Shown here piece after piece: positions 16,279-21,759 of a DNA stretch of 64,000 bases. The DNA lies in assembly GCA_030426955.1 (NCBI GenBank), contig JAUHXS010000002.1:1-64000 (forward strand), read 5' to 3'. A program made the translations under genes and the position numbers. Within the stretch, counting starts at the first letter, position 1. Every line of letters starts with the position of its first letter. Below the pieces are notes generated by a model. It was not told the DNA's origin and ran no database searches. It worked only from the letters and a program-made list of their open reading frames with translations. The DNA is from Bacteroidia bacterium. GTDB lineage: Bacteria; Bacteroidota; Bacteroidia; Chitinophagales; JAUHXS01.

Positions 16279-16310
16279 TATCTAAATATAAAAAATACTC
16301 ATCACTACAT

Positions 16311-16360
16311 CCTAGTCTCTAACCCTAAATCCTAACCCCTAAATCCTCTTACCTCTTACC
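16311..16360. repeat. CCTAGTCTCTAA-type intergenic repeat, copy 1
   Basis: A C/T-rich strand with irregular units of CCTAA, CCTCTTACC and similar begins with CCTAGTCTCTAA at 16311. The same 12-mer heads a related C/T-rich tract at 22483. It lies between metF and the Ig-repeat gene. Confidence 0.5.
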
Positions 16361-17423: not shown

Positions 17424-17567
17424 TACTTATCAAGAAAGGCGGAGGGAATGGCCCTATGAAGCCTTGGCAACCCCAATTCAATTATAAATTACTAATTATA
17501 AATTTTGAATTAGGAAGGTGCCAATTCCTATTCTATTCGATATTATTCGGAAAGATTGAGATAAGGT
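17424..17567 (+). promoter_or_regulatory. SAM-I (S-box) riboswitch of the metH genes
   Basis: The sequence has the SAM-I core in order: CTTATC at 17426-17431 (P1 5'), GGCGGAGGGA, TGGCCC, TGAAGCCTTGGCAACC, GGTGCCAATTCC, and GATAAG at 17560-17565 (P1 3'). The conserved blocks bind S-adenosylmethionine. The arm between GGCAACC and GGTGCCAATTCC is long and AT-rich, holding two copies of AATTATAAATT. Downstream, ATAAGGTTA (17561-17569) can pair instead with TAACTTAT (17593-17600), which would compete with P1. A 73-codon open frame across this region is not a gene. Confidence 0.93.
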
Positions 17568-17650
17568 TAAAAGATGCTTCGGCTCCACTTACTAACTTAT
17601 TTTCAATTTCTTGATATCAAATTATGCTAAAGGTTATTGATTTGAATATT

Positions 17651-18622
17651 ATGGATATTAGAGAAATATTAAAAGAGCGCATTTTAGTTTTAGATGGTGC
17701 TATGGGTACCATGATCCAACGTTATAATTTGCAAGAGGATGATTTTCGAGGAGATCGATTTAAGGATCATCAGTCTCCACTCAAGGGTAATAATGACTTG
17801 TTGTCTATTACTCGTCCTGATGTAATTAAAGAGATTCACGCTCAATATTTTGAAGCAGGTAGTGATATCATAGAGACCAATTCTTTTGGCAGCACTTCAA
17901 TTGCCCAAGATGATTATGATCTTGCTCATGTTGTTTATGATATGAACTATGCTTCTGCCAAAATAGCCAAAGAAGCTGCGGTTGAGTATACTCAAAAAAA
18001 TCCTAAAAAACCGAGATTCGTTGCCGGATCTATGGGACCTACTACAAAGTTGGCATCTATGTCTCCAGACGTTAATGACCCTGGATTTCGAAATGTTAGT
18101 TTTGAAGAATTGGTAGCTGCTTTCAAAGAACAAGCTAAAGGATTAATTGAAGGGGGAGCAGATTTGCTTTTGGTGGAGACAATTACTGATACACTTAATG
18201 CAAAAGCTGCTTTATTTGCAATAGATGAAATTCAAGAGGAGCTAAACACAAATCTTCCTGTAATGATTTCAGGCACTATTACAGATGCCAGTGGTCGGAC
18301 TTTATCAGGTCAAACAACAGAGGCATTTATTGTATCTGTTGAACATTCTAATCCCTTAACAATCGGCTTGAACTGTGCTTTAGGGGCATCCGCGCTGAGA
18401 CCATACCTGCAAGTAATTAAAAATAAATCGAATGCTTTTGTCAGTGCACACCCTAATGCAGGGTTGCCCAACGAAATGGGTGAATATGATGAAACACCTG
18501 AGCAAATGGCTGCGCAAATAAAAGTTTTTTTAGACGAAGGGCTTGTGAATATTGTGGGAGGTTGTTGCGGAACAACTCCAGAGCATGTTCGTGCGATTGC
18601 TGAATTGGTTAATAGTCAATAG
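17651..18622 (+). CDS. metH: Methionine synthase, homocysteine-binding half
   Basis: With the ATG at 17651 the protein has 323 residues and starts [21 protein letters not shown], as MetH does; a start at 17624 would add nine residues. It is the zinc-dependent homocysteine methyltransferase barrel: LDGAMGTM near the start, ETNSFG near 70, and the zinc ligands in GLNCALG (about Cys242) and GGCCGTTP (about Cys305/Cys306). It lacks the folate, cobalamin and activation domains, which are in the gene after next. Such a split MetH is common in this phylum. It is governed by the SAM-I riboswitch. Confidence 0.93.
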
Positions 18623-18630
18623 TAAGTAGG

Positions 18631-19011
18631 CCATAGTTTATAGTTATAGAGTATGATGAAATTCGAAAAGTTAAAGGTGTGGCAAAAGTCGCTTGACTTA
18701 ACTGTTGATGTTCATGAGCTAACACGTAAATTCCCTAAAGAAGAACTATACATATTGACGAGTCAATTTAAAAGGGCTGCTGATTCGGTAAGCCTAAACA
18801 TTGTTGAAGGCTCAATGGGAGCAAGTAATAAAGAGTTTAATAGATTTTTAGGGATAGCTTTAAGATCTGGAATAGAAGTTATCGGTTGTTTATATATTGC
18901 AAAAGCAAGAAAGTTAATTGATCAAAGAGCATTTGATACTATGTATGCTAAATATGAGGAAGTAATTAAAATGATTCAAGCACTACGAAATTCTCTTAAA
19001 TAAAACTATGG
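18631..19011. repeat. Inverted repeats flanking the four-helix-bundle gene
   Basis: CCATAGTTT at 18631-18639 is repeated inverted as AAACTATGG at 19003-19011, either side of the small gene at 18653-19003. Both flanks are rich in TATAG/CTATA words (for example GACTGTCGACTATA after the gene). The pair delimits a unit of about 380 bp between the two metH genes. Confidence 0.5.
18653..19003 (+). CDS. Four-helix-bundle protein, 23S rRNA intervening-sequence (S23) family
   Basis: The protein has 116 residues with the family marks FEKLKVWQKSLDLTVDVHELT at the start, LTSQFKRAADSVSLNIVEGS in the middle and EFNRFLGIALRSGIEVIGCL. These small helical proteins were first found encoded in 23S rRNA intervening sequences and are scattered through Bacteroidota genomes; the biochemical role is not known. 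It lies between the two parts of metH, on the same strand, 30 bp after the first and 38 bp before the second, and is flanked by inverted repeats. Confidence 0.92.
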   Translation: MMKFEKLKVWQKSLDLTVDVHELTRKFPKEELYILTSQFKRAADSVSLNIVEGSMGASNKEFNRFLGIALRSGIEVIGCLYIAKARKLIDQRAFDTMYAKYEEVIKMIQALRNSLK

Positions 19012-19041
19012 ACTGTCGACTATAAAACCATTAACTAAACA

Positions 19042-21759
19042 ATGAGCTTACACCCCAACTACACCAGACCTTATCAATACAAGTGGAATAATCTACCTTA
19101 TCTGAGATTGAGCGGACTAGAACCGTTAACCGTTACGCCGGACAGCAACTTTGTAAATATTGGAGAACGAACAAATGTTGCAGGGTCTAAGAAGTTTTTA
19201 AGACTAATAAAAGAGCAAAACTTTGAAGAGGCATTAAGTGTTGCGCGAGAGCAAGTAGAAGGAGGTGCCCAAATCATCGACATCAATATGGACGATGGGT
19301 TGATTGATGGGAAAGAATCCATGGTTGCTTTCCTTAAGCTAGTTGCTTCTGAACCTGATATCGCGAGAGTTCCAATAATGATTGATTCTTCAAAGTGGGA
19401 GATCATAGAAGCAGGCTTGAAGAATGTTCAGGGGAAATGTATTGTGAACTCTATTAGTTTAAAAGAAGGAGAGGAGTTGTTTATCCAACAAGCCAAAACC
19501 ATTTTACGCTACGGAGCTGCTGTAATTGTGATGGCTTTTGATGAAACTGGACAAGCAGACAGTTATGACCGAAGAATTGAAATATGTAAACGATCTTATG
19601 ATGTTTTGGTTGATAAAGTGGGATTTCCTCCACAGGATATTATTTTTGATCCAAACATATTCCCAGTAGCTACTGGCATGGAGGAGCATCGTAAAAATGC
19701 CTTAGACTTTTTTCAAGCAACAAGATGGATCAGAGAAAATCTACCAGGAGCACATGTTAGCGGTGGGGTTAGTAACGTTTCTTTTTCTTTCAGAGGAAAT
19801 AACAAAGTAAGGGAGGCAATGCATTCCTCTTTTCTTTACCATGCAATAAAAGAGGGTATGGATATGGGTATTGTGAACCCATCTATGCTAGAAGTATATG
19901 ATGATATTCCTAAAGATCTTTTAGAGTATGTAGAAGATGTTTTGCTAGATAGACGAGATGATGCCACAGAACGATTGCTAGAGTTTGCCGAAACAGTCAA
20001 AGGAGATAGCACAAAAGAAGTAAAAACATTAGAATGGAGAAACGAACCTGTTGAAAAGAGATTAGAGCATGCATTAGTGAAGGGAATTGTTGATTTTATA
20101 GAAGAAGATACAGAAGAAGTTCGACATAAGTTTGACAAAACATTAAAAGTAATTGAAGGTCCTTTAATGGACGGTATGAATGTGGTGGGAGATTTGTTTG
20201 GAGCAGGTAAGATGTTTTTGCCTCAAGTGGTAAAGAGTGCCCGAGTAATGAAAAAGGCTGTGGCTTATTTATTGCCATTTTTAGAAGCGGAAAAAGAAGA
20301 AGGGCAAAAGAGTGCAGGTAAAATTCTGTTAGCAACGGTAAAAGGTGACGTGCATGATATAGGTAAAAATATTGTCGGAGTTGTTTTAGCTTGTAATAAC
20401 TACGAAATTATAGACCTTGGTGTCATGGTGTCCGCTGAAAAAATTCTTGCTACTGCTAAGGAGCAAGATGTTCAGGCTATTGGCTTAAGCGGATTAATAA
20501 CACCTTCTCTAGACGAAATGGTGCATGTGGCCAAGGAAATGGAACAACAAGAATTTAATATCCCACTATTAATTGGTGGTGCTACTACTTCTAAGGTGCA
20601 TACGGCGGTAAAGATAGATCAAAACTATACTAAGGGGCAAACAGTTCATGTACTAGACGCGTCTAAGTCCGTTCCTGTTGTAAGTAGTTTGTTATCGTCT
20701 GAAAAAGAGAATTTTGTCAGGACTATAAAAGACGATTATCAAAAGTTACGAGAAAATCATGCACTAAGGCAAGGTCAAAAAAATCTAATTTCAATTGAAG
20801 AGGCAAGATCCAATAGGTTCAAAATTGATTGGGGGCCTCAAGAAGTGCATAAACCTGAATTTATAGGAACGAAGCATTTTGACAATTACTCCTTAAAAGA
20901 GCTCTCAAAGTATATTGACTGGACACCATTTTTCTCAACATGGGAGTTAAAAGGGAAATACCCAGCAATATTAGAAGATGAAGTAGTAGGAGTTGAGGCC
21001 AAGAAACTTTTTAATGATGCCCAATCTTTACTTCAAAGAATAATAGATGAAAATTGGCTAGAAGCAAAAGCAGTAATTGGCATTTATCCAGCAAATGGTG
21101 TTGGGGATGATATCGAAGTATATGCTGATGATAGTCGTGAAAAGATATTAACCACTTTCCATACCTTGAGACAACAACAAAAGAAAGCGGCTAATGTGGC
21201 CAATTTTGCCTTAGCAGATTTTATTGCGCCTAAAGACTCAGGGGTTAAAGATTATATTGGAGGTTTTGTCGTAACTGCTGGCCATGGAATAAAAAAGCAT
21301 CTTGAAAAGTTTGAAGCTGACCATGATGACTATAACTCAATAATGGTTAAGGCTTTAGCTGATCGTTTAGCAGAAGCCTTTGCTGAGTTGATGCATGAGC
21401 GCGTTCGAAAAGAGTTTTGGAGTTATGCGAAGGAGGAGCAATTAGAAAACGAACAACTGATTCGTGAAAAGTATCAAGGCATTCGACCTGCGCCTGGTTA
21501 TCCAGCTTGTCCTGATCATACAGAAAAGCCGATTTTGTTTAGTTTGCTCAATGCGACAGAGCATACAGGAGTAAAATTAACAGAAAGCATGGCGATGTGG
21601 CCCGCTGCATCAGTAAGTGGATTGTATTTTGCACATCCAGAATCCAGATACTTTGGGCTCGGACAAATCAAAAAAGATCAGGTAGAAGATTATGCCAATA
21701 GAAAAGGGATGGAGGTAAAAGACGTGGAGCGTTGGTTAAGCTCTAACTTAGCATACTAG
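19042..21759 (+). CDS. metH: Methionine synthase, folate/cobalamin/activation half
   Basis: The protein has 905 residues. The pterin-binding barrel covers about 30-300 ([29 protein letters not shown]), the cobalamin cap about 330-420, the B12-binding Rossmann domain about 425-560 with the axial histidine in DVHDIGKN near 438 and [13 protein letters not shown], and the SAM-binding activation domain the C-terminal ~330 residues, ending PESRYFGLG...DYANRKGM. It transfers methyl from methyltetrahydrofolate through cobalamin to homocysteine bound by the separate first subunit. Reductive activation by a flavodoxin-like partner is expected. Confidence 0.95.

Follow-up and report, generated by a model that had tools for sequence, protein, structure and literature searches.

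The window analysed here, a stretch of 64,000 nucleotides from a Bacteroidia genome, carries a small S23/IVP gene between the two halves of a split metH gene, with a SAM riboswitch on the 5′ side. The sequence-only reading had described this arrangement, and profile searches bore it out. The S23 ORF scored 118.8 bits against PF05635 (cut-off 33.8) and 114.4 bits against TIGR02436, "four helix bundle protein" (cut-off 24); with a match above the curated cut-off, the gene is a member of the PF05635 family. The two halves cover consecutive parts of the metH model, metH-N the first 330 positions and metH-C positions 324-1181. The riboswitch is the window's sole match in an Rfam search. The features of the locus are as follows.

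17424-17567, plus strand: SAM riboswitch (Rfam RF00162, 75.1 bits; fold z −3.13), 5′ of metH-N
17624-18622, plus strand: metH-N, homocysteine S-methyltransferase half (PF02574, 340 bits; start possibly at 17651)
18604-18652, plus strand: 5′ heptamer array, overlapping the end of metH-N and abutting the S23 start codon
18653-19003, plus strand: S23/IVP four-helix-bundle gene, 116 aa (PF05635, TIGR02436)
19004-19038, minus strand: 3′ heptamer array (the 5′ unit in reverse complement), with 3 bp between its end and the start codon of metH-C
19042-21759, plus strand: metH-C, 905 aa, with pterin-binding, B12-binding and activation domains (PF00809, PF02607, PF02310, PF02965)

The S23 gene is flanked on both sides by arrays of degenerate heptamers, which are reverse complements of each other. 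Inverted repeats and TATAG-rich words had been pointed out on both sides of the gene. The 9-bp inverted repeat is exact (CCATAGTTT at 18631-18639, AAACTATGG at 19003-19011) and lies innermost in longer, imperfect arms at 18605-18638 (TTGGTTAATAGTCAATAGTAAGTAGGCCATAGTT) and 19004-19038 (TTAGTTAATGGTTTTATAGTCGACAGTCCATAGTT, as reverse complement). Taken alone, the inverted repeat of this locus is not significant: the best alignment of the two arms was equalled by 46 of 200 shuffled pairs, so that comparison with relatives, of which more than 200 were used, is needed, and the RNA duplex of the arms stands at just the 22nd percentile for the arms of 139 S23 genes. The TATAG words are real and correspond to units of the arrays. 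Read in sevens, the 5′ array is ATTGGTT, AATAGTC, AATAGTA, AGTAGGC, CATAGTT, TATAGTT, ATAGAGT; its identity at lag 7 is 0.66 over the 42 nt from 18604 to 18645, a value reached by none of 5000 shuffles. The 3′ array, which includes TATAGTC, GACAGTC and CATAGTT when read on the minus strand, is short and weak (0.45 at lag 7).

The last codons of the window's metH-N fall within the 5′ array, and its product lacks a C-terminal tail of ~12 residues (KNYKPR...) present in nearly all relatives; in one relative (genome G080), the right array encodes the start of metH-C. Thus, insertion removed a little of both halves. The split of metH itself is older than, or independent of, the S23 insertion, since insertion-free split metH genes are common.

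Heptamers are also seen elsewhere in the window. A solo array lies between two genes at 16305-16346 (CTAACCC, TAAATCC, TAACCCC, TAAATCC) with no S23 gene. In the SAM riboswitch, the P3 loop is far longer than in the family model and carries an extra hairpin at 17475-17516, a self-complementary lag-7 array (AATTCAA, TTATAAA, TTACTAA, TTATAAA, TTTTGAA).

Period-7 arrays beside S23 genes

S23 genes were found in 122 of 150 genomes of the window's order. Lag analysis of 61 loci (the window and 60 others of up to ~17 kb) gave an identity at lag 7 of 0.445 upstream and 0.443 downstream of the S23 gene, with further peaks at 14, 21 and 28, as compared to 0.26-0.32 at other lags and to 0.301/0.307 at lag 7 beside other genes of the same loci. 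The same excess appeared in 66 further Bacteroidota loci (0.380/0.374), as well as in 23 loci of other phyla (0.432/0.373). The Bacteroidota loci and 14 of the 23 came from scanning a single genome per species with six closer S23 proteins, 20 diverse ones being too little conserved; the other nine were cyanobacterial plasmid loci. The unit sequence varies widely between elements (TTAGTGG, ATGTTGG, TTGGCAG, TCCGGGG, TGAGCTA), with AACTCGG in Geobacter, AGTATTG in Ignavibacteriae, TGGTTTC in Clostridia, AAAAGCT in Pseudanabaena and AGTAGGG in Nostoc. A lack of shared inverted repeats beside other S23 genes had been named as refuting the cassette reading. The flanks do not refute it: what they have in common is an inverted array of period 7, whose unit differs in each element. 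Judging from the loci sampled, this end design is common to the S23 genes of many bacterial phyla. We found no description of inverted heptamer arrays around operon S23 genes in the literature searched. An Rfam search of the 14 non-Bacteroidota scan loci for a 23S insertion gave no match, and no close relatives were found among IMG/VR viral contigs. Some S23 genes (L016, L023, L033, L035) have end units of 6 nt (GAGAAT, GATTGG), in some cases directly after tRNA genes; in a quick tree these four and two other S23 genes make up a single clade of six.

Arrays were present on both sides of 61 of 140 S23 genes, and in 57 of the 61 the arms were inverted. The two arms of an element resemble each other (similarity 0.71) more than they do the arms of other elements (0.42), the median rank of an arm's own partner being 1.7%.

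The elements sit in operons. Within the order, 57 of 62 S23 genes were co-directional with both neighbours, as opposed to 258 of 509 control genes (Fisher p 6e-11), and the median gaps beside them were 55 and 50 bp. Insertions against the direction of the operon occur in cyanobacterial plasmid loci, so the sense bias is not universal. On these plasmids, S23 genes (L364-L372) are found inside cas6-cas4 and cas10-cmr3 operons, or else between nrd genes, and perfect heptamer arrays accompany several of them.

Empty sites, relocation and a second gene in the same gap

Gene and flanks had been read as a small mobile or once-mobile cassette, with the proposal that metH loci with an empty site be sought. 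Such loci exist: many metH junctions in the order have their halves 0-30 bp apart, and most relatives have no S23 gene in metH. Within a single genus (g19) the gap is either empty (4 bp, G118) or occupied by an ORF-less hairpin (G112), an S23 cassette (G069, G080, G094), a GxxExxY cassette (G087, G080) or an S23-GxxExxY chimera (G018). In a quick tree, the window's S23 protein groups with the metH-gap S23 proteins of this genus and with one from another site (L118). Filled and empty gaps measured 434 and 6 bp at metH (L164/L187), 486 and 28 bp at fadB-fadA (flanks 86-87% identical), 464 and 7 bp in Algoriphagus, and 449 and 20 bp at carA-carB. The difference is the whole cassette of ~430-490 bp; at sites other than metH the pairs differ by 426-486 bp, lying between a stop and a start codon. 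No clear target-site duplication was seen in three filled/empty alignments, whose flanks are moderately similar.

Among S23 protein pairs 60-65% identical, 14 of 17 were at different sites, while 11 of the 12 pairs more than 80% identical shared the same site. By this comparison such cassettes do move, but rarely or in the distant past, the most similar pairs nearly all sharing a site; no transposition event was observed. The empty metH gaps, the other filled/empty pairs and the presence of related S23 genes in different operons support the view that 18604-19038 is a mobile or once-mobile cassette, probably an operon-embedded relative of the intervening sequences of 23S rRNA. In their ends the elements differ from a conventional insertion sequence or MITE: there are no transposase-recognised terminal inverted repeats of conserved sequence, and only period and inversion are common to the elements, the unit being different in each.

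These data also bear on an alternative in which S23 is an ordinary operon gene regulating methionine synthesis and the heptamers represent intergenic DNA generally prone to slippage. Control intergenic DNA does show a slight lag-7 excess (0.301-0.307) and solo arrays exist, but period 7 is much more pronounced beside S23 genes in every phylum sampled, and the arms are pairwise matched and inverted. S23 genes moreover lie beside unrelated operons, and the metH genes of most relatives do without one. We give this explanation very little weight, since the existence of empty sites and the variety of operons that host S23 largely refute it.

The metH gap that receives S23 cassettes is also occupied by a different small gene, GxxExxY (PF13366). 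GxxExxY genes are found in other operon gaps as well, with inverted ends made of short units (L196-L225; L139, L153, L172, L181, L194). The end repeats have the core CACAAAG, CGCAGAG or ACGGAT at an irregular spacing of about 9-11 nt; the flanks show no period 7, and a weak excess at lags 9, 10, 20 and 22. That GxxExxY occupies the same gap with other repeats indicates that the type of repeat goes with the protein. The chimeric metH-gap cassette (L169; G018:C13:798700-801200) consists of S23 and TAGTC-type heptamers in its 5′ half and, in its 3′ half, of the terminal part of a GxxExxY gene together with that gene's own end repeats.

Heptamer unit, S23 protein and the level of action

Similarity between units tracks similarity between S23 proteins (Mantel r 0.18; 0 of 500 permutations), a signal to which shared descent may contribute. 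As protein identity rises, unit similarity on the same strand increases from 0.40 to 0.81, while that on opposite strands remains flat. In addition, S23 pairs at different sites retain similar units (0.66 versus 0.44, p 0.0003, n = 10). Since the unit tracks the protein, it is plausible that S23 acts on the ends of its own cassette. The step of 7 nt stays constant over phyla as the unit sequence changes, which points to the S23 protein as the likely determinant of the step.

The AlphaFold model of the window's S23 protein is a four-helix bundle (four helices, pLDDT 95.6). Its best match in the PDB is 2gsc (TM 0.96), with 2rld also among the closest; both structures contain five chains, and the title of a reference cited in PMC3936711 speaks of five four-helix bundles. 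The protein has no catalytic domain. This feature would suit a passive cassette, one whose arrays are recognised by host recombination, replication slippage or some other enzyme, with S23 as a passenger or a domesticated accessory. The same could be said of the ORF-less arrays, one of them in the SAM riboswitch loop, and of the heptamers of cyanobacterial trnL introns (PMC3488679). However, such a process would be blind to the protein, and the unit and the protein co-vary; nor would it be expected to give the GxxExxY family a different spacing. We consider a passive cassette unlikely.

The sequence-only reading had left room for action on RNA folded from the ends. In its full form this alternative holds that selection acts on pairing of the arrays in the polycistronic mRNA, so that S23 loops out and RNase III removes it as in the 23S intervening sequences, the DNA symmetry being a by-product. 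The arms of the same element do pair better as RNA, at a mean of −31.1 kcal/mol as against −19.6 kcal/mol for mismatched arms, which follows from their inversion; in the window's transcript the two arms form a closing stem, the energy lying below the shuffled mean (z −1.77). The strong sense bias in operons and the cleavage of 23S intervening sequences by RNase III in their terminal stem (PMC4990558) are likewise in line with it. Mismatches, however, run contrary to selection for pairing in the sense RNA: inside the arrays, to which the count was confined as whole-flank stem alignments are confounded by the A-rich sequence beside the gene, G.U-type mismatches (86) are not in excess over the A.C type (102). 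The mismatch test therefore lends no support to action on folded RNA, for which the RNase III excision of 23S intervening sequences provides a precedent (PMC4990558). Some cyanobacterial insertions are antisense, and pairing alone does not need a fixed period of 7. Finally, the arrays are C-poor and G-rich when read inwards from both sides (C 8%, G 26%), which is the symmetry of two DNA ends and not that of a transcript. The lack of a G.U excess, together with this symmetry, leads us to favour a DNA-level role for the array ends, from which RNA processing might follow; an element selected primarily as RNA seems improbable.

Proposed element and its relation to known systems

We think that the data as a whole are best explained, with a probability of about 0.72, by a mobile or once-mobile S23 cassette with mirror-image arrays whose heptamers the S23 protein would read. 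Sequence comparison has established the foundations of this proposal: the architecture, its generality, the empty sites, the joint relocation of gene and array, and the co-variation of unit and protein. The cassette (18604-19038) would consist of the left heptamer array, the S23 gene and the mirror-image right array, and would insert into short gaps between operon genes, in the window's order mainly in sense orientation, as an operon-dwelling relative of the S23-encoding intervening sequences inside 23S rRNA. S23, whose solved relatives are five-bundle assemblies, would recognise the heptamers at both ends, and the fixed step of 7 nt would reflect its repeated subunits. Such recognition could pair the two ends for movement or maintenance, with a host or partner enzyme presumably carrying out the DNA chemistry. 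Transcription of the operon would run through an inserted cassette, whose ends, able to form hairpins, might allow the flanking cistrons to tolerate it; RNase III could trim the cassette mRNA as it does the 23S elements. In a broader and more tentative formulation, one we would not yet bet on, S23 proteins are heptamer readers that define small mobile elements throughout bacteria, each recognising its own unit in elements lacking a recognisable transposase; the 23S intervening sequences would then be one niche of these elements and GxxExxY cassettes a parallel class.

Thousands of S23/IVP genes carry the annotation "four helix bundle protein", and where the intervening sequences of 23S rRNA come from and what they do have been standing questions since about 1990 (PMC4990558). 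An end structure defined by inverted arrays of fixed 7-nt step, with a private, co-varying unit, makes S23 binding and the spread of the element testable. It may also provide a common frame for the heptamers reported in Coxiella, possibly those of cyanobacteria, and the S23 genes of cas operons.

Several known systems share parts of this design. Avd of the diversity-generating retroelements (4dwl, 8ub7) has the fold of the S23 model (TM 0.77-0.80) but only 7-9% identity to the window's protein, which matches PF05635; the likeness is one of fold only, and neither a reverse transcriptase nor the repeats of such a retroelement were identified here. The GxxExxY/PDDEXK_3 cassettes occupy the same operon gaps and have inverted short-unit ends, but their protein belongs to a nuclease superfamily and their units are spaced ~9-11 nt apart. 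The P6b hairpin of the cyanobacterial trnL intron is built of degenerate 7-nt pairing units in variable copy number, with no S23 gene inside (PMC3488679); the heptamer hairpin of the SAM riboswitch P3 loop resembles it, and the trnL heptamers may have a link to S23. In CRISPR cas loci, 18 genes named 23S_rRNA_IVP have been treated as cas-associated (PMC3936711). They belong to the same family and lie between operon genes, as do the cyanobacterial cas6-cas4 and cas10-cmr3 examples found here, and they appear to be one instance of a general intercistronic insertion.

The intervening sequences of 23S rRNA in Coxiella burnetii, Leptospira and Xanthomonas share with the window's cassette the Pfam S23 ORF and complementary ends, as well as comparable length, patchy distribution and, in Coxiella, heptamers 5′ of the ORF (PMC4990558). 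In that organism, tandem GACAGAT heptamers in strain-variable number directly precede the S23 ORF, inside a 28-bp terminal stem, in elements totalling 428-444 nt (PMC4990558). The analysed loci included no 23S intervening sequence as a positive control, and the Coxiella heptamers are taken from that report. Complementary ends enclosing an S23 ORF, a trait of intervening sequences, are present in the window (arms 18605-18638 and 19004-19038). The cassette is nevertheless not a 23S intervening sequence proper: those lie in helix 9, 25 or 45 of 23S rRNA (PMC4990558), whereas cassettes of the window's type lie between the protein genes of operons, here metH-N and metH-C, and, unlike the 23S elements, have matched inverted heptamer arrays on both sides. 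Heptamers were already known from the Coxiella intervening sequence (PMC4990558); the inverted heptamer array as the end of an S23 cassette appears to be new, judging from the literature searched.
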